This document shows positions 8,294-22,367 of a stretch of 64,000 bases of DNA, in pieces. Under the pieces are notes generated by a model. The model had not been told where the DNA came from and made no database searches. It worked only from the letters and a program-made list of their open reading frames with translations. The position numbers were made by a program, and so were the translations under genes. Each line of letters opens with the position of its first letter. Position 1 is the first letter of the stretch. Origin of the DNA: Caldisericales bacterium (GTDB lineage: Bacteria; Caldisericota; Caldisericia; Caldisericales; Caldisericaceae); the NCBI GenBank assembly GCA_015489815.1, contig WFZA01000019.1:62001-126000 (forward strand), read 5' to 3'.

Positions 8294-9436
8294 TTATATT
8301 AACATTATAAGAATTCCAGAAAGGAGCGCAATTGCACCTCCAAAGTAAAATGGTGCACTTGGAGCGATGTATTGATACAGAATACCTGCAATTATAGAAG
8401 CAGGAAGCGCCATAATTCCCACTCCAAAACTGTAAACTCCATATGCTGTCCCTCTTGAACTTTGCTCAGAAACAAGATCAGATACAAACGCTTTTTGCGC
8501 ACCTTCGGCGAATGCGTAATAAATACCGTACAATGGATAAATTACAAAAAGCAGAGACGGAGATTTTGTTAAAGCAAATCCTAAATAGCTTAAGGCATAG
8601 AGTATATATCCAATGACAATAGTCTTCTTTCGCCCAATTTTATCAGATAATGCCCCGAGTGGTGTAGAAAGTAATCCATAAACAGTACTATGGAGAAACC
8701 AGAGGAAAAGAATTGTCGTTGCAAGTAATCCTAATTTTCCTGAGTACATCGTAATAAACGCATCAGAACTGTTTCCCAGTGTGAAGAGCATTATAACGAC
8801 AATGTAAAAATAGAACCTTTTTCCAAGGCTAAATTTTGACTTTGCACGCTCCTTTTTTACAAAGCTCTTAAATTCTTTTTCCTTTACAAATAGAATTAAA
8901 ACAACTGCAATAAATGCTGGAATAAGTGCTGCTTTGAACACGGCATCGTAGTTTGTTTTGCCAAATTTGTCCAGCACCCATATACCAAGAAGAGGTCCTA
9001 TTGCTGCACCTAAAGTATCCAGTGCACGGTGAAATCCGAAGTATAGCCCTCTGTTTTTTTCATTAGTATATGAAGATATAAGGGCATCTCTTGGGGCAGT
9101 CCTGATTCCTTTTCCCACTCGCTCAAGCGCGCGTATCCATAGAACTGCAATGGGCGTGCGGGCGAACGGTAAAAAGCATTTCGTAAGAGTTGACTCAGCG
9201 TAACCCAGAAAAGCAAACCACTTTCTGCTACCGATTCTATCTGAAAAGTATCCAAAGAAAATTTTAAGAAGCGAAGCTGTGCTTTCTGCTATGCCTTCTA
9301 TTACTCCTATAAATGCCCCGCCTGCACCTATGGATTCTAAGAATAATGGAAGGACTTTGACAATCATCTCTGACGAGACATCGTTAAAGAAACTAACAAA
9401 GCCAAGAATAACTACATTTCTATTGAGTTTTTTCAT
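8294..9436 (-). CDS. MFS transporter
   Basis: A 380-residue membrane protein with about 12 hydrophobic segments. The loop motifs FGYFSDRIGSRKW and GALSDKIGRKKT are the two MFS signature loops. N-terminal FFNDVSSEMI is shared by a subfamily of poorly characterised MFS proteins. The start has GGTGG upstream and overlaps the end of the MoeA-PBP gene by 17 bases. Its position between molybdopterin genes makes a role in anion or cofactor-related transport conceivable, but nothing in the sequence shows the substrate. Confidence 0.85.
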   Translation of the reverse strand: MKKLNRNVVILGFVSFFNDVSSEMIVKVLPLFLESIGAGGAFIGVIEGIAESTASLLKIFFGYFSDRIGSRKWFAFLGYAESTLTKCFLPFARTPIAVLWIRALERVGKGIRTAPRDALISSYTNEKNRGLYFGFHRALDTLGAAIGPLLGIWVLDKFGKTNYDAVFKAALIPAFIAVVLILFVKEKEFKSFVKKERAKSKFSLGKRFYFYIVVIMLFTLGNSSDAFITMYSGKLGLLATTILFLWFLHSTVYGLLSTPLGALSDKIGRKKTIVIGYILYALSYLGFALTKSPSLLFVIYPLYGIYYAFAEGAQKAFVSDLVSEQSSRGTAYGVYSFGVGIMALPASIIAGILYQYIAPSAPFYFGGAIALLSGILIMLI

Positions 9437-11336
9437 CTACCACCCCTATGTACTTGTATCCTGAAAATCCTTTTGCAATTTTAATGAATTCTGGGTCCTG
9501 CAAGAAGTCTAAAACAAATCTTACTTCCTTTCTTCTTAAGTCATTTTTCAAGATAACGAGATCGTACTGCTCTTCCTTTACCGGGATAAAATCGAGGTCA
9601 AGAGCATCTGCAACATACTTTATTCCAATCCCGCAGTCTGCGCCACCTAACTTTACATTGTTTGCTACGGCAAGATGGGTAAACTCCTCGTGTTCATATC
9701 CATTTATAGACTCAAGACTAACGCTGTTTTTTTGGAGCAGATAATCCGTAATCACTCTCGTACCTGAGCCTCTTTGTCTGTTTACAAATGTAATGTCTGG
9801 ACGGGCAATGTCGCAGATTGTGCGAATGTTTTTTGGGTTTCCTTTTTGAACGATAATGCCCTGGCTTCTCAGGGAAAAATGCACAAGGACAAACTCCTTT
9901 TTAAGGTACTTCTTGAGAAAAGGTATGTTGTACACCTCACTTTTTTCGTCAAACAAGTGCGCTGCCGTAATGTTGCACTCGCCTCGCGACATAGCAAGCA
10001 ATCCGCCGAGGCTTCCACTGTTGATAATCCCTATGTTGAAAGAAGGCTCTTTCTTTTTTATAAATGAAAAGTATCTGATAAGCAGAGGGTCGTTGCTGCC
10101 TATAAAGAGAATCTGGTTTCTAATGTCTCTGCTGCCCTTAAGCATTTCTATATTTACTACACTATTTGCTTCTATTCCCTCGCTATCAAAAGGAATTTTT
10201 AGCAAGCCGTCCGCATTTGAAACGGATGATAAAACACCAGCACCTTTTTTGAGTGGGACGGCCACGGTTTTATCATCTACATTGCCCAATTTTGCACGAA
10301 TAAATTCAGTAACACCTATCTTAGATGTAATAGGTCTATGCACAACTGCTTTCAGTTTTTTTGTTTGCGGCAAATTTCTGCCCTGCATTTTGTAAAGCGC
10401 ATATTTTAGAAATATGTGTGAGATAATAAAAGAAGAAACGGGGAAGCCTGGCATTCCAATCGCAGGTTTTCCGTTAATTGTGCCAAGAATTACAGGTTTG
10501 CCAGGTTGAACTGAAATTCCGTGGACGCGAATTTTTCCCAGATCGTTTATTACACTCGCCGTTAAGTCTTTTGTGCCCTTAGCGGAACCGCCTACGATAA
10601 TAACAATATCTACATTATCAATCTTATTTTTAATGAAAGTTTCGATTTTCCGTTCGTCGTTAGGAAGAATTTCAGAGATAATAGGTGTTGCATTTGCCTC
10701 TTTCACAAACGATGCGATCATATACGAATTCGTATCTACGATGTCTCCTATCTTTAGTCCTTCTCCAGGTTTTTTAATTTCTTCTCCTGTGGGAATGATA
10801 AGTACTTTAAGTTTTCTATATACCTTTACTTTTGTAATTCCCCCTGCAAGCAGCACACCTATGTGTGCATTTGTAATTGTTTCATTGGGATATATGAGCG
10901 GTTCTTTTATGCCTATGTCTTCACCGATAAGACGGACATTTCTGTACGGAGAAATAGACTCAAAAATGCGGAATTTGTTGTCAGTAATTTCTACATCTTC
11001 TATCATAATTACAGCATTAAAACCTTTTGGCATTGGGTCACCAGTGTTTACCAATATTCCGTCTTTTCCCAATTCCAGAACTTTTGGCGTGCTCAGCGAA
11101 GCACCGTTCGTAATGCGGGCATCCACTGCAATGCCATCAACTGCAGACGCCGTGTAAAATGGGGAGGATTGCTTAGAATAAACTGTCTCAAAGGCAATTC
11201 TACCGAGTGCGTCCTTAACAGATATAATTTCTGGCTCAAGATTTAATGGATAATTAGATTTGTCTAAAATGTCTTTCCAGATTCGTTTTGCCTGCGTAAG
11301 ATTCTTTTTGTTGAGGAATATTTCGCGTTTTACCAT
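9420..11336 (-). CDS. MoeA-type molybdopterin molybdenumtransferase fused to a periplasmic-binding-like domain
   Basis: 638 residues in two parts. Residues 1-400 are MoeA, with VDGIAVDAR, VNTGDPMPKGFNAVIMIED, PTGEEIKKPGEG and the insertion-site VGGSAKGTKD. Residues about 420-635 form a type-2 periplasmic-binding-like domain (IGSNDPLLIRYFSF, RQRGSGTRVITDYLL, GGADCGIGIKYVAD), without a signal peptide and so cytoplasmic. This fusion is known in archaea and anaerobes. The extra domain is thought to bind molybdate, tungstate or the cofactor; that part is inference. It overlaps the upstream moeA by 7 bases and the downstream MFS gene by 17. Confidence 0.9.
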   Translation of the reverse strand: MVKREIFLNKKNLTQAKRIWKDILDKSNYPLNLEPEIISVKDALGRIAFETVYSKQSSPFYTASAVDGIAVDARITNGASLSTPKVLELGKDGILVNTGDPMPKGFNAVIMIEDVEITDNKFRIFESISPYRNVRLIGEDIGIKEPLIYPNETITNAHIGVLLAGGITKVKVYRKLKVLIIPTGEEIKKPGEGLKIGDIVDTNSYMIASFVKEANATPIISEILPNDERKIETFIKNKIDNVDIVIIVGGSAKGTKDLTASVINDLGKIRVHGISVQPGKPVILGTINGKPAIGMPGFPVSSFIISHIFLKYALYKMQGRNLPQTKKLKAVVHRPITSKIGVTEFIRAKLGNVDDKTVAVPLKKGAGVLSSVSNADGLLKIPFDSEGIEANSVVNIEMLKGSRDIRNQILFIGSNDPLLIRYFSFIKKKEPSFNIGIINSGSLGGLLAMSRGECNITAAHLFDEKSEVYNIPFLKKYLKKEFVLVHFSLRSQGIIVQKGNPKNIRTICDIARPDITFVNRQRGSGTRVITDYLLQKNSVSLESINGYEHEEFTHLAVANNVKLGGADCGIGIKYVADALDLDFIPVKEEQYDLVILKNDLRRKEVRFVLDFLQDPEFIKIAKGFSGYKYIGVVDEKTQ

Positions 11337-12556
11337 AAGGTTATCTCTACCTTTTCTCCTTTTATTAGCCCTTCGCTCATAAGAGGAATCGTGATTATTC
11401 CCGAACCTTCGATAAAAACGCTGATGAACGCAGATTCTGAGAAGATAGGTTCTGCAAAGAATTCGTTACTTCTTTTTACTAACTTTACTACTATAAATTC
11501 TTCTCTGCCTTTTCTTGATGGTACATTTGCGTTAAGTGTAGCAAATACAGTGTGTTTTTTGACTTTTAAGCCGATTTTCTTTGCAATTAAAGGAATAACC
11601 ACATACTTAAAAACGAGGAAAGAAGCCAGGGGGTTGCCCGACAGTCCCACGATTAACTTTTGATTTACTACTCCAAAAACGCTGGGCTTTCCAGGTGAAA
11701 GATGGAGTCCGTGAATGAGCACACCAGGTTTTCCTGCTTTATTTATTACGCTAACCGTAAAGTCAAAACTGCCTTTACTCGTCCCTCCGCTCATAATTAC
11801 GATATCATTTTCTGAAAGGGCTTTAGTTAGAGCCTTCTGAAGTTTGTCCTCTCTGTCTTTTACGATCCCATAGAGCTTAGGCAGAAAGATTGAGGAACTG
11901 AATGCTTCTGAAAATAAGGTGTATCCGTTAATGTCGTATATTTTGCCCGTTTTGAGCGAGCCACTATTCACGAGTTCGTCGCCTGTTGAAATAATCCCAA
12001 TGGGTATTTTATTAAAAACTTCTACTTCTGTTAAGCCAAACCCTCTTAAAAGTGCTACTTTCTGCGGTGTTATCAGCTCACCTTTTTTCAATATTACGGT
12101 GCCTTTTTTGACATCTTCGCCTACTTCGATGAGGTTTTCGTGTGGGGAAACAGAACGGAAAACGAAAACTTCGTCTCCTTGAACTTGTGTATGTTCAATC
12201 ATCACGAGGCTATCAGCGCCGTCAGGCACCACTCCTCCGGTTGGAACATACACAGTTTCCCCTCGCTTTAGCTTATCTTTGTATGATTCTCCTATTTTTA
12301 GCGTGGAAATCAGGTGCAGAGGAACCGGATTCGATGGAGATGCACCCAAGACATCTTTTGAGTGAACTGCAAACCCGTCAACAAGCGATTTTCTGAAAGA
12401 CGGTATAGAAAAAGTTGCTTTGTAATCTCTTGCTGAGAAGTGATTTACTGCATCTTGAATTGGACAAGTTTCCTTACCAACATTAACTGAAAATTTATCT
12501 AATAGTATTTTTTCTATATCAGAACGCTTTTTTACCTTGAGGTATTTCTTATCCAT
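11330..12556 (-). CDS. moeA: Molybdopterin molybdenumtransferase MoeA
   Basis: 408 residues with the full MoeA set: LVDGFAVHSKDV, VPTGGVVPDGADSLVMIEHT, STGDELVNSG, MSGGTSKGSFDF and LHLSPGKPSVFG. It inserts molybdate or tungstate into adenylated molybdopterin in the cytoplasm. Together with the adjacent MoeA-PBP fusion there are two MoeA paralogues, an arrangement often taken to mean separate handling of molybdenum and tungsten. The start overlaps etfA by 25 bases and the ribosome-binding site is weak, which suggests translational coupling. Confidence 0.92.
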   Translation of the reverse strand: MDKKYLKVKKRSDIEKILLDKFSVNVGKETCPIQDAVNHFSARDYKATFSIPSFRKSLVDGFAVHSKDVLGASPSNPVPLHLISTLKIGESYKDKLKRGETVYVPTGGVVPDGADSLVMIEHTQVQGDEVFVFRSVSPHENLIEVGEDVKKGTVILKKGELITPQKVALLRGFGLTEVEVFNKIPIGIISTGDELVNSGSLKTGKIYDINGYTLFSEAFSSSIFLPKLYGIVKDREDKLQKALTKALSENDIVIMSGGTSKGSFDFTVSVINKAGKPGVLIHGLHLSPGKPSVFGVVNQKLIVGLSGNPLASFLVFKYVVIPLIAKKIGLKVKKHTVFATLNANVPSRKGREEFIVVKLVKRSNEFFAEPIFSESAFISVFIEGSGIITIPLMSEGLIKGEKVEITLW

Positions 12557-13395
12557 TGTTCAATTTCTGGCAGAGCATCCTCTACTTTTGCGTTTATGGG
12601 AAGTGTGCACTTTACAAAAATCGGGGCTGATGGATCTGAATTTATAGCAATTATATACTTTGCATTTACGCCAGAAAGATGCTGTATCGCACCAGAAATG
12701 CCCAGCGCTATGTAAATTTCAGGGTTAACGGATATACCTGAATCTCCTATTACTCTATTCAGGGGCAGCAGGCCCATATCGGCAACTGGCCTCGTGCAGC
12801 CAATTTCTGCGTTTAACTCTTTTGCAAGGTGCTTTACTTTTGATATTTGTGACTTTTTTACACCTCTGCCTATGCCAATTACGATACGCGCATTTTGAAG
12901 AGGATTTGTTTCTTTTTCACTTCTTTCAATTAAATGCACATCGTCTGAACGGCGAACTTCTATTATTTTGGGTTCAGATTCACTATGGTATTCAATGCTT
13001 TCATTGTTTTTTAAAATCATAAGAGCTGGCCTGGAAGTTGCGTAGACTTCTGCTTCTAAGTTTTCCCAGCCAGGAACGAGTCCTATAATTTTATTGTCTT
13101 TTATATATATTCTTGTGCTGTGTGAAATAAGGCCGAGTTGCTCTTTGCCTGCAAAGTATGCAGCAGATTCCCTAATTAGGGTTTCGTCAGTAAATATTAT
13201 AAGGTCTGCCTCTACTTCTTTTGACACGCCACTTATAAATTCGTAACCTTCAATTGGAGTTTGTATGTCTAACGATGGAATAAAATCTGCACAGTCTTTG
13301 CACTTCGAAAAGGAAGCAGCAATGATGTCTTTGGAAACGGATTTTGTACTTTCTATTACGCCGTTATTTTTATTAAAGAATACCAATGTTTTCAT
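12532..13395 (-). CDS. etfA: Electron transfer flavoprotein, alpha subunit
   Basis: 287 residues. The C-terminal FAD-binding domain carries the typical VIGIGRGV, GCTRPVADMGLLP, ISVNPEIYIALGISGAIQHL and INSDPSAPIF. It pairs with EtfB to shuttle electrons between a flavoprotein dehydrogenase and an acceptor. It is somewhat shorter than the usual ~320 residues, with a reduced N-terminal domain. The start overlaps etfB by four bases with AGGTG upstream. No acyl-CoA dehydrogenase or quinone oxidoreductase is nearby, so the redox partner is unknown. Confidence 0.92.
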   Translation of the reverse strand: MKTLVFFNKNNGVIESTKSVSKDIIAASFSKCKDCADFIPSLDIQTPIEGYEFISGVSKEVEADLIIFTDETLIRESAAYFAGKEQLGLISHSTRIYIKDNKIIGLVPGWENLEAEVYATSRPALMILKNNESIEYHSESEPKIIEVRRSDDVHLIERSEKETNPLQNARIVIGIGRGVKKSQISKVKHLAKELNAEIGCTRPVADMGLLPLNRVIGDSGISVNPEIYIALGISGAIQHLSGVNAKYIIAINSDPSAPIFVKCTLPINAKVEDALPEIEQWIRNTSR

Positions 13396-14153
13396 AACAC
13401 ACCTGCCTTTGAAAGAAGTTCTACAAAGTTCTTTCCTATTTCAGTTGTTACGAGTTTTTCGTTTTGTTTAATTTCGTTCTGTATTAAAGATAGAACTGCC
13501 GTACGCGCGCCTTTTAATCCGCAGAGATTTTCGTCTAACTGCAAATCAGAATTTGAGAAAACCTCTACTTTCTTTTCTTCAAAAGTTCTTAGGGAGAACA
13601 GATTTTCCGAAATTCCGAAGTTTGCAGAATCACTTATTGAGGCAACAAATTTTCCCTGTATCTTAAATGTTTCCTCATCCTGCTCCGTAATTCTTTTTAC
13701 TTTATCTTTTCGTATAGAAACAACATGGCTTAAAAACGGAACACCAAGGAATGCGGCAATCTCTGCAGAAGCCTGTCCTGTTGCACCATCCACAGAATAA
13801 TCGCCAGTAGATACGATGTCGAAGTCTTTTTCGACTTTTTTAATTGCACTTGCAAGAACAAATGCCGTTGATAGCGTATCTGCCCCTGCAAAAACTTTAT
13901 CAGAAACGAGGATTACTCTGTCAAACCCAAATTTAAAAAGTGACTTCAAAACAGTTTCTGTATTTGGAGGACCCATAGAAATTGCAATAAGATTACTTCC
14001 AGGGTTTTCTTCTTTTAGTTTTCTTGCTTCTTCTGCAGCAATTAAATCAGTCGGATTTAGAATAAGCTTTACATTTTTTCTCTCTATTCTTTTAGTTTCT
14101 TTATTGAATACAATTTTTTCAGGCACAACCTTTACTGTAACGACTAATTTCAT
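13392..14153 (-). CDS. etfB: Electron transfer flavoprotein, beta subunit
   Basis: 253 residues of the adenine-nucleotide alpha-hydrolase fold. It has NPTDLIAAEEARKLKEE, VSTGDYSVDGATGQASAEIA, which is the nucleotide-binding loop, and FLGVPFLSHV. It forms the heterodimer with EtfA. GGAGG precedes the ATG, and the start overlaps the WecG-fusion stop as ATGA. The presence of a nucleotide in this subunit could be AMP (housekeeping ETF) or FAD (bifurcating ETF); I cannot decide by eye. Confidence 0.92.
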   Translation of the reverse strand: MKLVVTVKVVPEKIVFNKETKRIERKNVKLILNPTDLIAAEEARKLKEENPGSNLIAISMGPPNTETVLKSLFKFGFDRVILVSDKVFAGADTLSTAFVLASAIKKVEKDFDIVSTGDYSVDGATGQASAEIAAFLGVPFLSHVVSIRKDKVKRITEQDEETFKIQGKFVASISDSANFGISENLFSLRTFEEKKVEVFSNSDLQLDENLCGLKGARTAVLSLIQNEIKQNEKLVTTEIGKNFVELLSKAGVL

Positions 14154-15601
14154 TTTCCCTCCTCACTTTTAAATAATACTTTAAGCGCAAACGAAACGAT
14201 GTGGTGCAGGCGAGCAAAACGCGTCGGCTGGATAATCATCCTGTAGAGCCATTCAAGGCCAATGTTTTGCACAAACTTCGGGGCGCGTTTTACATACCCG
14301 CTCCAGACATCGAACGAGCCTCCTACTCCAATTGCAACAGGCACATTAAGCTCGCTTTTATGCCTGGCAATCCACTTTTCCTGTTTTCCTCCGCCCATGC
14401 CAACAAAAAGTATCTTTGTGTGCGTTTCGTTTATTTTATTCATTATTGCAGACTCTTCGCTTTTTTCAAAATAGCCGCTGTGAAAACCGCTTATCTGTAG
14501 TTGTGGAAAGTTCTTTTTAATCGTTTCCAACGCTCTTGTCAAAATACTTTCTTTCGCTCCAAGAAAGTATACGGGTAGGCTTTTCCTTTCGGCAAGTTTT
14601 AACAGATTCCAGGCAAACTCTATCCCTGGAATTCTGTGTACAATGCGCTTACCGCGCATTTTTGCCCCCCACACGATTCCAATCCCGTCGGGTATAATGA
14701 GGTCTGCATTTTTTAGTACTGTAAAAAATTCCTCATCCTGGAATGCTTTTGAAGCCATCTCGCCGTTTAGCGTTACGATAAGGTGCAGTTTGCCATCCTC
14801 CAGAAATTCGTTTACGATTTTGAGATTTTCTTCGAGAGATCTATTAGAAATTCTTACTCCAAATAGGTCGACTTCCTCTTCAATTTTTTGAGGAATACGC
14901 ATAACAAGGAAAATAAATTTGGGAAGGGACATTATGCGGGGCAGTCTTCTTGGATCTAAAATAAAACGGTAAAACCATTCGAGTCCTAATTTTTGGATAA
15001 CAGAAGGCGCTCTACTATATTCGCCTGCAAGTACATTGAAGCTGCCGCCTACTCCCATTGCAAATTTTACATTCAAATCTGGAAGATTGCGGTAGATGAA
15101 TTTTTCCTGCTTTGGACTGCCCATCCCTACAAATAATAGATCTGCCTTACTGTTTTTTATTTGTTCTACGATTTCTTTTTCGTTTTCAAAGTAGCCATTG
15201 TGATATCCAGCAATTTTTAGTTTTGGGTGGTTCTTTTTGAGATTTGCAATGGCTTTTTGAAGCGTTCCTTCTTTTGAGCCAAGCAAAAAAACGGAGTAGC
15301 CTTTCTTCTCCGCAATATTCAATAAATTTAAAAACAGGTCTATCCCGGGTATACGAGCTTTAAAGCGTTCTTTATAGAAAATTTTTGATGCCCAAATAAC
15401 ACCTATTCCGTCAACGAAGTTCAAGTCACTCTTTTTTAATATAGAGAGCAGTTCGTTATCTCTATAAGCCTTAAGGATCTTTTCGGGATTAATTGCAATT
15501 GCAAGATGAGGCTTATCTCCGCTCAGGAATTCCTCAATCCTGCCCAATGCTTCCTCCATAGACAGATCGTCTACGGGAATGTCTGCAACGAAAATCCTCA
15601 T
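14150..15601 (-). CDS. Tandem WecG/TagA/CpsF glycosyltransferase (two domains fused)
   Basis: 483 residues made of two complete copies of a WecG/TagA domain, each about 235 residues and normally a stand-alone protein. Copy 1 has NFVDGIGVIW, FVGMGSPKQEKFIYRN and GVGGSFNVLAGEYSRAP. Copy 2 has IIPDGIGIVWGAK, FVGMGGGKQEKWIAR and GVGGSFDVWSGYVKRAP. Both keep the DGIG aspartate proposed as catalytic base in TagA. Family members transfer N-acetylmannosamine or its uronate to a lipid-linked GlcNAc at the membrane. The adjacent nucleotide-sugar dehydrogenase supports a ManNAc/ManNAcA product. The copies are clearly diverged, so this is an old duplication. Confidence 0.9.
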   Translation of the reverse strand: MRIFVADIPVDDLSMEEALGRIEEFLSGDKPHLAIAINPEKILKAYRDNELLSILKKSDLNFVDGIGVIWASKIFYKERFKARIPGIDLFLNLLNIAEKKGYSVFLLGSKEGTLQKAIANLKKNHPKLKIAGYHNGYFENEKEIVEQIKNSKADLLFVGMGSPKQEKFIYRNLPDLNVKFAMGVGGSFNVLAGEYSRAPSVIQKLGLEWFYRFILDPRRLPRIMSLPKFIFLVMRIPQKIEEEVDLFGVRISNRSLEENLKIVNEFLEDGKLHLIVTLNGEMASKAFQDEEFFTVLKNADLIIPDGIGIVWGAKMRGKRIVHRIPGIEFAWNLLKLAERKSLPVYFLGAKESILTRALETIKKNFPQLQISGFHSGYFEKSEESAIMNKINETHTKILFVGMGGGKQEKWIARHKSELNVPVAIGVGGSFDVWSGYVKRAPKFVQNIGLEWLYRMIIQPTRFARLHHIVSFALKVLFKSEEGK

Positions 15602-16896
15602 AGCGTTAAATAAATCATGCCTTTTGATTCTACATCGTCTCTATTTAAGATACGCCTTGCATCAAATACGATACATCCATTTTTAGCATTATTCGCGATT
15701 ACTTCTGCAGAGATGTTTATATTGTCCTGCTTTATAGGAATAATAACGACATCCGCGTCTTTTAGTGCTTCTCCAAGGTTGTTCTTTTTTAAGGGAAAGT
15801 TTCCACTTACATTGGGATCGAACCACTGGACATTGCCGCCTTTCTGTAAAATGTTGTCTTTCATCTTTATAGCAGGGCTTTCAGAAATGTCAGAAGAGTT
15901 GTCCTTCATAGCAATGCCTATCAGTGCGAAAACTGAATTTTCCACTGTTTTTCCGAGATTGTTCAGCTTGCTTTCGATAAGTGAGAGTATTTCTAAAGGC
16001 CTGCTGTCATTAATTTCTCGTGCAGTATGAAGTAACGGCATAGGTAGTTTTATTTCATCAGATTTGTCGAATATATAAAGAGATGAGTAAGGAATACAGT
16101 GTCCTCCGACGCCCACTCCAGGTGTTAAAAGGTGCACTCTTTTGTGTGTGTTTGCAACTTTTATTACTTCAAGTACATCTACATTTAGCCGCTCTGTGAA
16201 AGAAGCAAGTTCGTTTGACAGAGCAATGTTTACATCCCTTGAGCTGTTTTCGATCAGTTTTGAAATTTCCACCACTTCTGGCTCAGATGCTTCAATAATT
16301 GGTTCTTTGTTTATTATAGATAAAAGATTAACTGCTCGTTTTTTGCTTTCTTCACTTAATGCTCCAACTGCAACGGGCATCGTCTGGAACTCCTCGAATG
16401 CCCTTCCTTCTGCAATGCGCTCTGACGAATAAGCAAGATAGAAGTCTTTGCAGCAAATAAGACCACTTTCTTTTTCAAGGATGGGCTTTACTACATTTCT
16501 CGTAGTCCCGGGCGGTACAGTAGAGCGGATTAAAACGAGGTCACCCTTTTTAAGAAATTTTCCAATAGAGTGGATTGCATTGCTGAATACTTCTTTTTTT
16601 AATGTACCATTCTCTATAGGTATCCCGACCGTTACTATAATGTCACGGGCATTTTTAAGCGCCGTTTCTGTTTTCGTCGTAGGAACAAACAGCCCTTTTT
16701 CTATTGATTCCTTTAATATATCTTCAATAGTTTTGCCTTTATAATTTTCCAATACATGTGTTTTGTATTGCTTTAAGTTTTCGATGTACTCCTCGTTTAT
16801 GTCTACCCCGTAGACTTTCACGCCGAAAAGTGTATAAGTTAAAGAAAGCGGCAGGCCTACAAATCCTAAACCAAAAACTGCTATGCTGTTTTCCAT
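15598..16896 (-). CDS. UDP-N-acetyl-D-mannosaminuronate-type nucleotide-sugar dehydrogenase
   Basis: 432 residues of the UDP-glucose/GDP-mannose dehydrogenase family. An N-terminal Rossmann fold (FGLGFVGLPLSLTYTLFGVK), the active-site cysteine in GVGVGGHCIPYSS, and a C-terminal UDP-binding domain (AMKDNSSDISESPAIKM) are present. It oxidises a UDP-sugar twice to the uronic acid with NAD. GGHCIP and the WecG neighbour point to the WecC-like (UDP-ManNAc) group; UDP-GlcNAc is also possible. It is the first gene of the eight-gene operon, with AGGAGGTTTAA before the ATG. Confidence 0.87.
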   Translation of the reverse strand: MENSIAVFGLGFVGLPLSLTYTLFGVKVYGVDINEEYIENLKQYKTHVLENYKGKTIEDILKESIEKGLFVPTTKTETALKNARDIIVTVGIPIENGTLKKEVFSNAIHSIGKFLKKGDLVLIRSTVPPGTTRNVVKPILEKESGLICCKDFYLAYSSERIAEGRAFEEFQTMPVAVGALSEESKKRAVNLLSIINKEPIIEASEPEVVEISKLIENSSRDVNIALSNELASFTERLNVDVLEVIKVANTHKRVHLLTPGVGVGGHCIPYSSLYIFDKSDEIKLPMPLLHTAREINDSRPLEILSLIESKLNNLGKTVENSVFALIGIAMKDNSSDISESPAIKMKDNILQKGGNVQWFDPNVSGNFPLKKNNLGEALKDADVVIIPIKQDNINISAEVIANNAKNGCIVFDARRILNRDDVESKGMIYLTL

Positions 16897-20759: not shown

Positions 20760-22367
20760 ATGGAACATAGTGGGGCAGCCGTTAATGATAGATTGATAAA
20801 TCAAACAGTGGATATAATTTCTTTAGTGTACATCGCTTTTTTAATTGTGCTTCTTATTATCCGCTGGCATATATTTCCCGTATTTATCGATATTTATTAC
20901 CACCTTGCCGTTATGCAGGGGTATAACCTTGCAGAAGGGATTACTAAAAACGCCTATTGGGAATTTGCCCCATTTGGAAGGCCTCAGCTCTATCCTCCGC
21001 TTTTACACCTTTTGATGCTAATTTTGTATAAGTTTCACATAAGTTTGCCGTTTATTGCTAAGTTCACAAGTTTTATTATGTTCCCCTTAACGCTCCTTAC
21101 GGAATGGTGGATTGTAAAAAAGATATATAATTCGAAAGCTGCACTTTTTTCAGTAGTTTTCCTGGGCAGTATCTATCAGTTCTTCTGGCACTCAAGCGTC
21201 CTTTCTGCAGCAGCACTCACGCAGATTCTGGGGCTTTTTGCATTTTTAGCAATTGAAAAGGATAAAAAATTTGCTTCCGCTATACTTATTACGCTTATGC
21301 TTTACTCTCACATAGCAATTCCGTATTTTTATTTTGCTGCATTTCTCTTATATGGACTGCTGCGTAAGGAAAAAAGGAAACTTATTTTAAGTTCGATTTT
21401 TATCTCCGCCATTTTATTTTCTCCGTGGCTTATCCACCTTGTAGCTCATCTTTCATTTATTCATATTAGAAGCAGTCTAGGGAATGATGCTGTCCCGTTA
21501 ACGATGCATCTATACATATGGATATGGCTTTTTGGGGTAATAGGTATTGCTGTAGTAATAAAGAAGCGAAAGGAATTTTTATTTCCACTTATTCTTTTTG
21601 TGGTGCTTATACCTATTGCATTTACTTACAGGCAAAGGTTTTTTGAGATTCACGGACTTATTCCTATTTCTATACTTGCAGGGATTGGCGTATCGAGCCT
21701 GCTTCACTTTGCCAAAAACAAAAAGAACATTCTGATATTTACAATTTTATTAGTAGTGCTTTTTGGATTTACAACCCCTGTGGTAAACATTACCTATAGA
21801 AAAGTTCATTTTAGATGGGATCAGCCGCTCGCATTTGCACTAATTAAAAATATTAATCCTGTAAATGGAGGGCGTAAAGATAACTTTCCCTATAAACCTG
21901 CACAAAGGCCTGATATAAAACCACCAGTACTTTATCCTCGAAAAAGCATAATGACGAAAAGTAACATTCAACTTGCTCATTTTATTAGTAAAACCACTAA
22001 AACAGGGAGTACGATTTATGTACCCGATGGACCGCTTGCAGACTTTATTTTTGCGTTTAGCAAACGCCCTGTAAGTAGCGGAATGCTTGGTGAAGTAAAA
22101 CCATACAAAAGGTCTTTCCCTCAGGATTGTGCATATATGCTTATCCCTGGAGATGTTTTGAGCGTGCCGCCTCCAATGGATGAAACATTTAATAGAGTTA
22201 CATTTACGAATGGATTTACGATATTTGAAAATAAAAGGTCCGTAAAGAAAGTATTTCCTGAAAAGCCTGTTTTCCCAAATTGGTTGAGCTTTATTCTTAT
22301 CGGCATAAGTGCTATAATAATTACACTTGATTTTATGAAGAAGCGGAGGGCAAATGGCAATATTTGA
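20760..22367 (+). CDS. GT-C-type glycosyltransferase-like integral membrane protein
   Basis: 535 residues with 10 or more hydrophobic segments, then a soluble C-terminal part (residues about 375-500) and a final membrane anchor. An acidic motif in the first extracytoplasmic loop, FIDIYYHLAVMQGYN, and the adjacent WEFAPFGRPQLYPPLLHLL resemble lipid-linked-sugar-using GT-C enzymes. A sugar transferase at the outer face of the membrane is therefore likely; donor and acceptor are unknown. There is no ribosome-binding site. Its end overlaps sdaAB by 14 bases. Confidence 0.62.
   Translation: MEHSGAAVNDRLINQTVDIISLVYIAFLIVLLIIRWHIFPVFIDIYYHLAVMQGYNLAEGITKNAYWEFAPFGRPQLYPPLLHLLMLILYKFHISLPFIAKFTSFIMFPLTLLTEWWIVKKIYNSKAALFSVVFLGSIYQFFWHSSVLSAAALTQILGLFAFLAIEKDKKFASAILITLMLYSHIAIPYFYFAAFLLYGLLRKEKRKLILSSIFISAILFSPWLIHLVAHLSFIHIRSSLGNDAVPLTMHLYIWIWLFGVIGIAVVIKKRKEFLFPLILFVVLIPIAFTYRQRFFEIHGLIPISILAGIGVSSLLHFAKNKKNILIFTILLVVLFGFTTPVVNITYRKVHFRWDQPLAFALIKNINPVNGGRKDNFPYKPAQRPDIKPPVLYPRKSIMTKSNIQLAHFISKTTKTGSTIYVPDGPLADFIFAFSKRPVSSGMLGEVKPYKRSFPQDCAYMLIPGDVLSVPPPMDETFNRVTFTNGFTIFENKRSVKKVFPEKPVFPNWLSFILIGISAIIITLDFMKKRRANGNI

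Follow-up and report, generated by a model that had tools for sequence, protein, structure and literature searches.

In the 64,000-nucleotide stretch of the Caldisericales bacterium contig WFZA01000019.1 analyzed here (the window), one gene encodes two complete domains of glycosyltransferase family 26 (GT26), the domain type of WecG and TagA, within a single polypeptide chain. The fused protein is probably a bifunctional transferase of N-acetylmannosaminuronic acid (ManNAcA) and N-acetylmannosamine (ManNAc), acting in the synthesis of a pyruvylated wall polymer that anchors proteins with S-layer homology (SLH) domains. At the level of sequence, the analysis demonstrates two active sites, each complete and conserved in its own right, with different pockets, and their linkage to dehydrogenase, CsaB and SLH genes. 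Published work describes GT26 enzymes as starting wall teichoic acids and SLH-anchoring polymers, and the papers searched yielded no explanation of how a GT26 enzyme comes to use ManNAc or ManNAcA as its donor. With both pocket types in one chain, kept across two families, donor choice becomes testable within one protein.

Two GT26 copies and their sugar pockets

The profile PF03808 matches the whole protein twice (E 1e-127). The two matches, with E-values of 5.9e-64 for copy 1 and 9.5e-64 for copy 2, score 214.5 and 213.8 bits against a gathering score of 27.4, which places both copies in GT26. The two copies share 44% identity. A sequence-only reading of this DNA had claimed two WecG/TagA domains fused in one protein at 14150-15601, each retaining three motifs; the single minus-strand frame and the double PF03808 match confirm the first claim, and all three motifs are indeed present in each copy, namely DGIG (VDGIG in copy 1, PDGIG in copy 2), FVGMG..KQEK (FVGMGSPKQEK and FVGMGGGKQEK) and GVGGSF (GVGGSFN and GVGGSFD). 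By sequence, TagA 7mpk matches copy 1 (residues 2-234, E 3e-58). The features of the protein and of its neighbour are collected in the table below.

In PMC6493773, TagA residue Asp65 is proposed as the base, Thr37 is proposed as a contact to the C5/C6 hydroxyl of ManNAc and its replacement in T37A reduces activity, Arg221 from the C-terminal appendage is placed at the uridine diphosphate (UDP) phosphates, and a monomer-dimer equilibrium is reported. This is also the model to which the sequence-only reading had referred, with the C-terminal tail supplying the last part of the catalytic site at the membrane. In an alignment of 18 tandem proteins, with the TagA numbering checked, the equivalents of Asp65, Arg83, Gln167, Glu168, Arg214, Arg221 and Arg224 are found in both copies of all 18, and both therefore hold the catalytic Asp, the Gln-Glu pair and the three-Arg C-terminal appendage of a GT26 enzyme. 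The earlier supposition of two complete active sites, each with its own appendage, is thereby borne out. An AlphaFold2 model built from the 18 aligned rows predicts both domains and both appendages as folded (mean predicted local distance difference test score, pLDDT, 89.6; predicted template modelling score, pTM, 0.82), the helical appendages at a lower confidence of 70-76 per ten-residue block. Compared with this model, the TagA structures 7mpk, 5wfg, 7n41 and 5wb4 superimpose on copy 2 (residues 241/242-439) with Z-scores of 30.4-31.3, root-mean-square deviations of 1.3-1.6 and 38-39% identity. The ratio of nonsynonymous to synonymous substitution rates (dN/dS) lies between 0.047 and 0.148 in both halves (seven genome pairs, Nei-Gojobori method), indicating purifying selection. 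A degenerate second copy is excluded by the invariant active-site residues and the low dN/dS.

The copies differ in the pocket that corresponds to TagA positions 37-42. All 18 tandem proteins read A-[IV]-N-P-E-K in copy 1 and T-[LI]-N-G-E-M in copy 2, as compared with AINAEK in E. coli WecG, which is annotated as a UDP-ManNAcA transferase, and TPNAEI in T. italicus TagA. The TarA/TagA residues Thr37 and Asp65 thus both occur in copy 2, while copy 1 has the Asp but an Ala at position 37. At position 37 TagA is proposed to contact the C5/C6 hydroxyl of ManNAc, and it is at C6 that ManNAcA differs; the Lys42 equivalent may meet the ManNAcA carboxylate. Eight single GT26 proteins from the family codes f4 to f7 of the phylum are all of the Thr type. 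Proteins of a VVNVAK type (Vibrio, Pseudoalteromonas, Paraburkholderia and locus L120) have Lys42 as well, but with a Lys at position 167, and are treated here as a type separate from the A/K type of copy 1.

The terms WecG-like for copy 1 and TagA-like for copy 2 refer to pocket residues only, and for copy 2 do not imply TarA membership. The TarA/TagA equivalog model NF041710 scores 379 bits against a cut-off of 350 on the whole tandem, as a sum over two stretches, and 185 and 198 bits on the separate halves, below that single-protein cut-off. The WecG equivalog model (NF002980/PRK03692, cut-off 323) returns 165 and 150 bits on the halves. Automatic naming of the gene at 14150-15601 as TarA may accordingly mislead, NF041710 being passed only by the whole protein. 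Promoter-like and terminator-like sites near the fused gene show no excess over the shuffled expectation.

Features of the tandem GT26 gene, its neighbour and related fusions (window positions unless a locus is named; 18/18 refers to the aligned tandem proteins)
Feature	Position	Strand	Remarks
Fused tandem GT26 gene, 483 aa	14150..15601	minus	single open frame; PF03808 twice
Copy 1, residues 1-235, WecG-like pocket	14897..15601	minus	PF03808 at 14933-15430
Copy 2, residues 240-483, TagA-like pocket	14153..14884	minus	PF03808 at 14210-14707
Copy 1 pocket motif A36-I-N-P-E-K41 (TagA positions 37-42)	15479..15496	minus	A36, N38, P39, E40, K41 invariant 18/18
Copy 2 pocket motif T277-L-N-G-E-M282, TagA Thr37 kept	14756..14773	minus	T277, N279, G280, E281, M282 invariant 18/18
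Copy 1 Asp64, equivalent of TagA catalytic base Asp65	15410..15412	minus	invariant 18/18; role as proposed in PMC6493773
Copy 2 Asp305, equivalent of TagA Asp65	14687..14689	minus	invariant 18/18
Copy 1 C-terminal appendage, residues 196-235	14897..15016	minus	R212, R219, R222 (TagA R214, R221, R224) invariant 18/18; helices in model
Copy 2 C-terminal appendage, residues 438-477	14171..14290	minus	R454, R461, R464 invariant 18/18; helices in model
Nucleotide-sugar dehydrogenase, probably UDP-ManNAc dehydrogenase (WecC-like)	15598..16896	minus	PF03721/PF00984/PF03720; 4 bp overlap with tandem gene
GT4-GT26-CsaB fusions (family codes f5/f6)	L043:6218-9178, L044:1358-4444, L045:5568-8591, L046:7407-10337		

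Distribution and origin of the tandem

The phylum was sampled with 54 Caldisericota genomes, in which the family codes f1 and f2 stand for Caldisericaceae and Cryosericum, and f3 to f7 for other families. The fusion occurs in 26 of the 54, all in Caldisericaceae (13 of 18 fused, two cut at contig ends, three without a match) and Cryosericum (13 of 15 fused, two without a match). Four of the five f3 genomes have instead two separate adjacent genes, overlapping by 14 bp and arranged as copy 1 then copy 2 as in the fusion, ahead of CsaB; the fifth has no match, and genome G035 has a third, cut copy. A single domain is found in 5/5 genomes of f4 and 4/5 of f7 (one without), and one domain within a long frame in 4/5 genomes of f5 (one without) and in the one genome of f6. 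A scan of genome contigs gave 29 loci, 21 of them tandem, under the names Caldisericaceae, Caldisericum, Caldiserica(ota), Candidatus Cryosericum and, once, "bacterium". An assembly artefact or a frameshift join is excluded, both domains lying in one frame in the 26 genomes, among them the single-contig genome G007 (1.56 Mb, 99% complete).

Outside the phylum, no tandem GT26 was seen among the matches listed from 297 genomes, 103 of which have GT26. All genomes with at least two matches were checked, five of them being listed anew, and the listed matches lie far apart or on different contigs; G104 and G243 have one unlisted match each and were judged from the short open frames (<340 aa) of the listed ones. 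None was found either in 29 further genomes, of which G270 and G128 already belonged to the earlier set, or among the matches listed from 299 and 398 genomes of the phylum of G104. The matches listed from plasmids and phages (25 and 10, with 247 and 5 further records beyond these) are all shorter than 0.9 kb, and hence single-domain. A tandem outside the phylum could turn up in a wider search. In the open-licence PubMed Central (PMC) literature, no paper was recognisable as dealing with a tandem GT26 and none was devoted to Caldisericota wall polymers, although PMC7203096 and PMC5007114 do mention these bacteria in connection with the cell envelope or OmpM.

Phylogenetic trees group the first f3 gene with fused copy 1 (support of 99 by the Shimodaira-Hasegawa-like approximate likelihood ratio test in a 99-row tree, 81/7 in another tree and 99/97 in a 55-row tree) and the second f3 gene with fused copy 2 (96, 88/89 and 91/91 in the same three trees). 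Since the f3 genes group with the matching halves, either the fusion joined two already separate genes or a split occurred in f3. The relationship between the two copies is less clear-cut. They stand apart in the quick 99-row tree, and the approximately unbiased (AU) test does not reject a single clade of copy 1 and copy 2 (p 0.81, with a likelihood better than that of the free tree; p 0.385 on 48 rows). The 48-row tree places copy 1 with gammaproteobacterial WecG (72/90, not starred), and the 55-row tree beside a clade of copy 2, f5/f6, f7 and three other rows (84/92, not starred). The alignment columns for positions 37 and 42 had been masked before these trees were computed. In the best 55-row tree the pocket type changes four times, the P/K pocket of f3 copy 1 being counted as A/K. 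One clade for all 24 A/K rows is rejected by the AU test (p 0.016), and the pocket may therefore have changed more than once. For the seven A/K rows of the G104 phylum alone, the best tree has three changes, of which starred branches force only one.

The dehydrogenase and the wall-polymer genes

The nucleotide-sugar dehydrogenase gene that overlaps the fused gene lies directly upstream of it in 26/26 fused genomes, as a fragment at a contig end in G041. Its product passes the general model TIGR03026 (326.7 bits against 189.8). It scores 266 bits with the UDP-ManNAc dehydrogenase equivalog NF040825 (cut-off 750), 208 with PRK11064 (cut-off 459), and 142 and 141 with the models of the UDP-N-acetylglucosamine (UDP-GlcNAc) and UDP-glucose types, and it is 29% identical to E. 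coli WecC. The presence of a dehydrogenase was rejected as a marker of copy 1, homologues occurring in 49/54 phylum genomes, and for the same reason only adjacency is informative. Contig C37 of the window's genome, G000, carries a second dehydrogenase gene, whose product has 35% identity to E. coli WecC, together with another WecB homologue (L170:4913-6211 and 12917-14005).

The association of the A/K pocket with a dehydrogenase extends beyond the phylum. A similarity search led to a GT26 on a Priestia megaterium plasmid that reads AINPEK; the gene just before it encodes a nucleotide-sugar dehydrogenase sharing 44% identity with E. coli WecC. This GT26 served as query against 299 genomes of the G104 phylum, probably Bacillota as judged by sequence, since the L222 GT26 of that phylum is nearly identical to T. 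italicus TagA. Among the best 30 loci, a WecC-like dehydrogenase lies within the 1.5-kb flanks of 3/3 A/K-type GT26 versus 0/27 others. A profile of the Priestia and these three A/K proteins, run against 398 genomes that are partly the same, added 30 loci and four new A/K-type proteins. Over these 60 loci with 50 distinct GT26 (identical proteins dropped, Priestia left out), the dehydrogenase is found within 1.5 kb of 7/7 A/K proteins versus 0/43 others, whereas CsaB is found at 24/43 of the others and at none of the seven. The Fisher p of 1e-8 is uncorrected for relatedness and overstates the evidence, because the seven proteins fall in five family codes (f297 and f314 twice each, f354, f371 and f381) and are partly related. 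Six of the seven dehydrogenases are 41-49% identical to E. coli WecC, while that of the seventh locus (L231) is closest to the window's own (44%). A-x-N-x-E-K may serve as a genome marker for GT26 enzymes expected to work with UDP-ManNAcA.

Of the 46 phylum genomes having GT26, 42 encode CsaB (PF04230) immediately next to it or in frame with it. The exceptions are three genomes of the window's genus and one relative, namely G000, where CsaB was not found, and G001 and G002, where it lies elsewhere, and also G014, in which the contig ends. The f5 and f6 proteins of about 1000 residues combine GT4, GT26 and CsaB (4/4 read), with a TagA-type GT26. CsaB and GT26 also share one frame of 612-616 residues at six loci of genus g419 in the G104 phylum (L183, L190, L192, L197, L199 and L202). 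The genes downstream of the tandem in the window are an electron transfer flavoprotein (ETF) beta/alpha pair and two of MoeA-like type, with short overlaps (9420-14153, minus strand), an order that in G001 and G002 occupies the place of CsaB in relatives. In many loci, from f1 to f6, CsaB is followed by a double-zinc-ribbon/phosphoribosyltransferase gene (L037:6522-7190, L056:8434-9084 and others), which we take to be ComF-like.

Homologues of the UDP-GlcNAc 2-epimerase WecB occur in 51/54 phylum genomes, and the window's genome has WecA next to WecB on a different contig. SLH domains are encoded in 18/18 family genomes. In the window's genome the TRAE motif, the Arg of which contacts the ketal-pyruvate according to PMC10628300, is present in two SLH proteins (L167 and L171). 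By Pfam, the L167 protein (L167:1153-3375) is an SBP_bac_5 protein with N-terminal SLH repeats and TRAE; the L172 and L173 proteins resemble it by eye and also carry TRAE. This architecture suggests wall-tethered peptide-binding proteins.

Several known systems resemble this ensemble in part. With TagA/TarA, the UDP-ManNAc:GlcNAc-PP-lipid transferase (PP, diphosphate) of T. italicus and P. alvei, each half shares sequence, catalytic residues and appendage, and copy 2 retains Thr37; the differences are the two copies per polypeptide and the Ala and Lys that replace Thr37 and Ile42 in copy 1. GT26 also starts the enterobacterial common antigen. E. coli WecG/RffM, which acts in its synthesis, has the A-I-N-x-E-K pocket in common with copy 1 and is likewise linked to a WecC-family dehydrogenase, but it is a single domain within the common-antigen cluster, with no CsaB in the stretches examined, and the trees do not place copy 1 as its sister with firm support. 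In the P. alvei pathway, as described in PMC6030368, TagA adds ManNAc to lipid-PP-GlcNAc and CsaB pyruvylates it to yield the SLH ligand of an anchoring polymer. The phylum has the same CsaB neighbourhood of its TagA-type GT26, as well as a UDP-GlcNAc 2-epimerase, a WecA-like enzyme and SLH proteins. The ensemble departs from P. alvei in its WecG-type half and linked dehydrogenase, from which a polymer with an acidic sugar is predicted, and in that CsaB does not adjoin the fused gene in the window's genus. The f5/f6 proteins likewise represent a fused assembly line around a TagA-type GT26, but a GT4 domain takes the place of copy 1, and CsaB belongs to the same polypeptide.

Proposed pathway and its alternatives

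Donors, acceptor, order of transfer and polymer structure, as we infer them, would be as follows. Two diverged adjacent genes would have fused to give a membrane-associated bifunctional GT26. Copy 2, of TagA type, would transfer ManNAc from UDP-ManNAc onto undecaprenyl-PP-GlcNAc; the overlapping dehydrogenase would convert UDP-ManNAc into UDP-ManNAcA, and copy 1, of WecG type, would add ManNAcA from it. The product would become part of a secondary cell-wall polymer, in which CsaB would pyruvylate the ManNAc and surface proteins with SLH domains would bind it. Such a polymer offers a specific hypothesis for the way in which Caldisericota retain these proteins. The sequence-only reading had foreseen part of this: its active sites, appendages and type of polymer stand, and the adjacent dehydrogenase does support a polymer containing ManNAc or ManNAcA, whereas the pocket difference, the usual occurrence of the fusion in two families, the unfused f3 pair and the CsaB and SLH connection were absent from it.

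A number of observations weigh against this pathway. Each half alone falls below the TarA and the WecG equivalog cut-offs, and the TarA model gives both of them more bits than the WecG model does. Copy 1 of f3 reads PINPEK (and copy 2 TINSEN), that is, without the Ala. Dehydrogenase homologues extend to families without copy 1, and in the 18 f3-f7 genomes with GT26 the dehydrogenase is on another contig or not found, none lying near the f3 pair. In other phyla, with flanks of about 6 kb, a dehydrogenase is near 3/8 A/K GT26 (two of these A/K rows, L114 and L144, having K167 like the VVNVAK type) versus 3/79 others, and the A/K-dehydrogenase rule is therefore not absolute. A paired phylogenetic test of the two traits yields one pair on starred branches and four in all, which is too few. 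The window's own genome, which is 78% complete, yielded no CsaB. Lastly, copy 1 could have its deep origin either in a local duplication with convergence to the WecG pocket or in the capture of a WecG-type gene.

As to the order of transfer, we lean modestly towards the two halves acting consecutively on one lipid-linked chain and away from the formation of two different disaccharides on a shared acceptor. Copy 1 stands where the f5/f6 proteins have a GT4, N-terminal to GT26-CsaB, and this position speaks for the addition of another sugar to that chain, while known GT26 chemistry places the second sugar on a lipid-PP-sugar and favours alternative products. WecG adds the second sugar to lipid-PP-GlcNAc, and we know of no third-sugar GT26, so that consecutive action would be the first by a GT26 beyond the second sugar. 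The full reading, in which two donors supply consecutive ManNAc and ManNAcA on one chain, the SLH-binding polymer is pyruvylated and contains ManNAcA, and A37/K42 versus T37/(M,I)42 is a family-wide donor switch met on several GT26 branches, is possible but tentative. Slightly more doubtful is the view that the same two donors yield GlcNAc-ManNAc and GlcNAc-ManNAcA from one pool of undecaprenyl-PP-GlcNAc, the protein thereby setting the ratio of precursors; the second-sugar transfer by TagA in PMC6030368 and PMC6493773 speaks for it, and the position of the f5/f6 GT4 against it.

The donor of copy 1 could also be another acidic or modified sugar, such as a uronic acid derived from UDP-GlcNAc or a further modified mannosaminuronic acid, with a dehydrogenase that is not of the strict UDP-ManNAc type. 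Its scores far below every equivalog cut-off and its low identity to WecC fit such a donor, but the UDP-ManNAc dehydrogenase models are the best equivalogs, the copy 1 motif matches that of E. coli WecG, and elsewhere six of the seven A/K proteins pair with enzymes 41-49% identical to E. coli WecC, the last with one that is closest to the window's own dehydrogenase; we regard this as unlikely. Transfer of ManNAc by both halves, the tandem only boosting activity or working as a covalent dimer, would agree with the higher TarA scores of each half and with the TagA monomer-dimer equilibrium, yet it appears still less probable in view of the A/K and T/M pair at the T37/I42 equivalents (18/18), the reduced activity of T37A and the dehydrogenase accompanying A/K elsewhere. 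A purely structural or regulatory role of copy 1, without catalysis, as the replaced Thr37 equivalent might hint, is very improbable, its remaining active-site residues and appendage Arg being invariant and its dN/dS as low as that of copy 2. The bifunctional ManNAcA/ManNAc transferase remains our preferred reading.

Elsewhere in the window, positions 20760-22367 (plus strand) encode a 535-residue protein of membrane-like appearance that returns no Pfam or NCBIfam match and has 83% identity in a sister genome.

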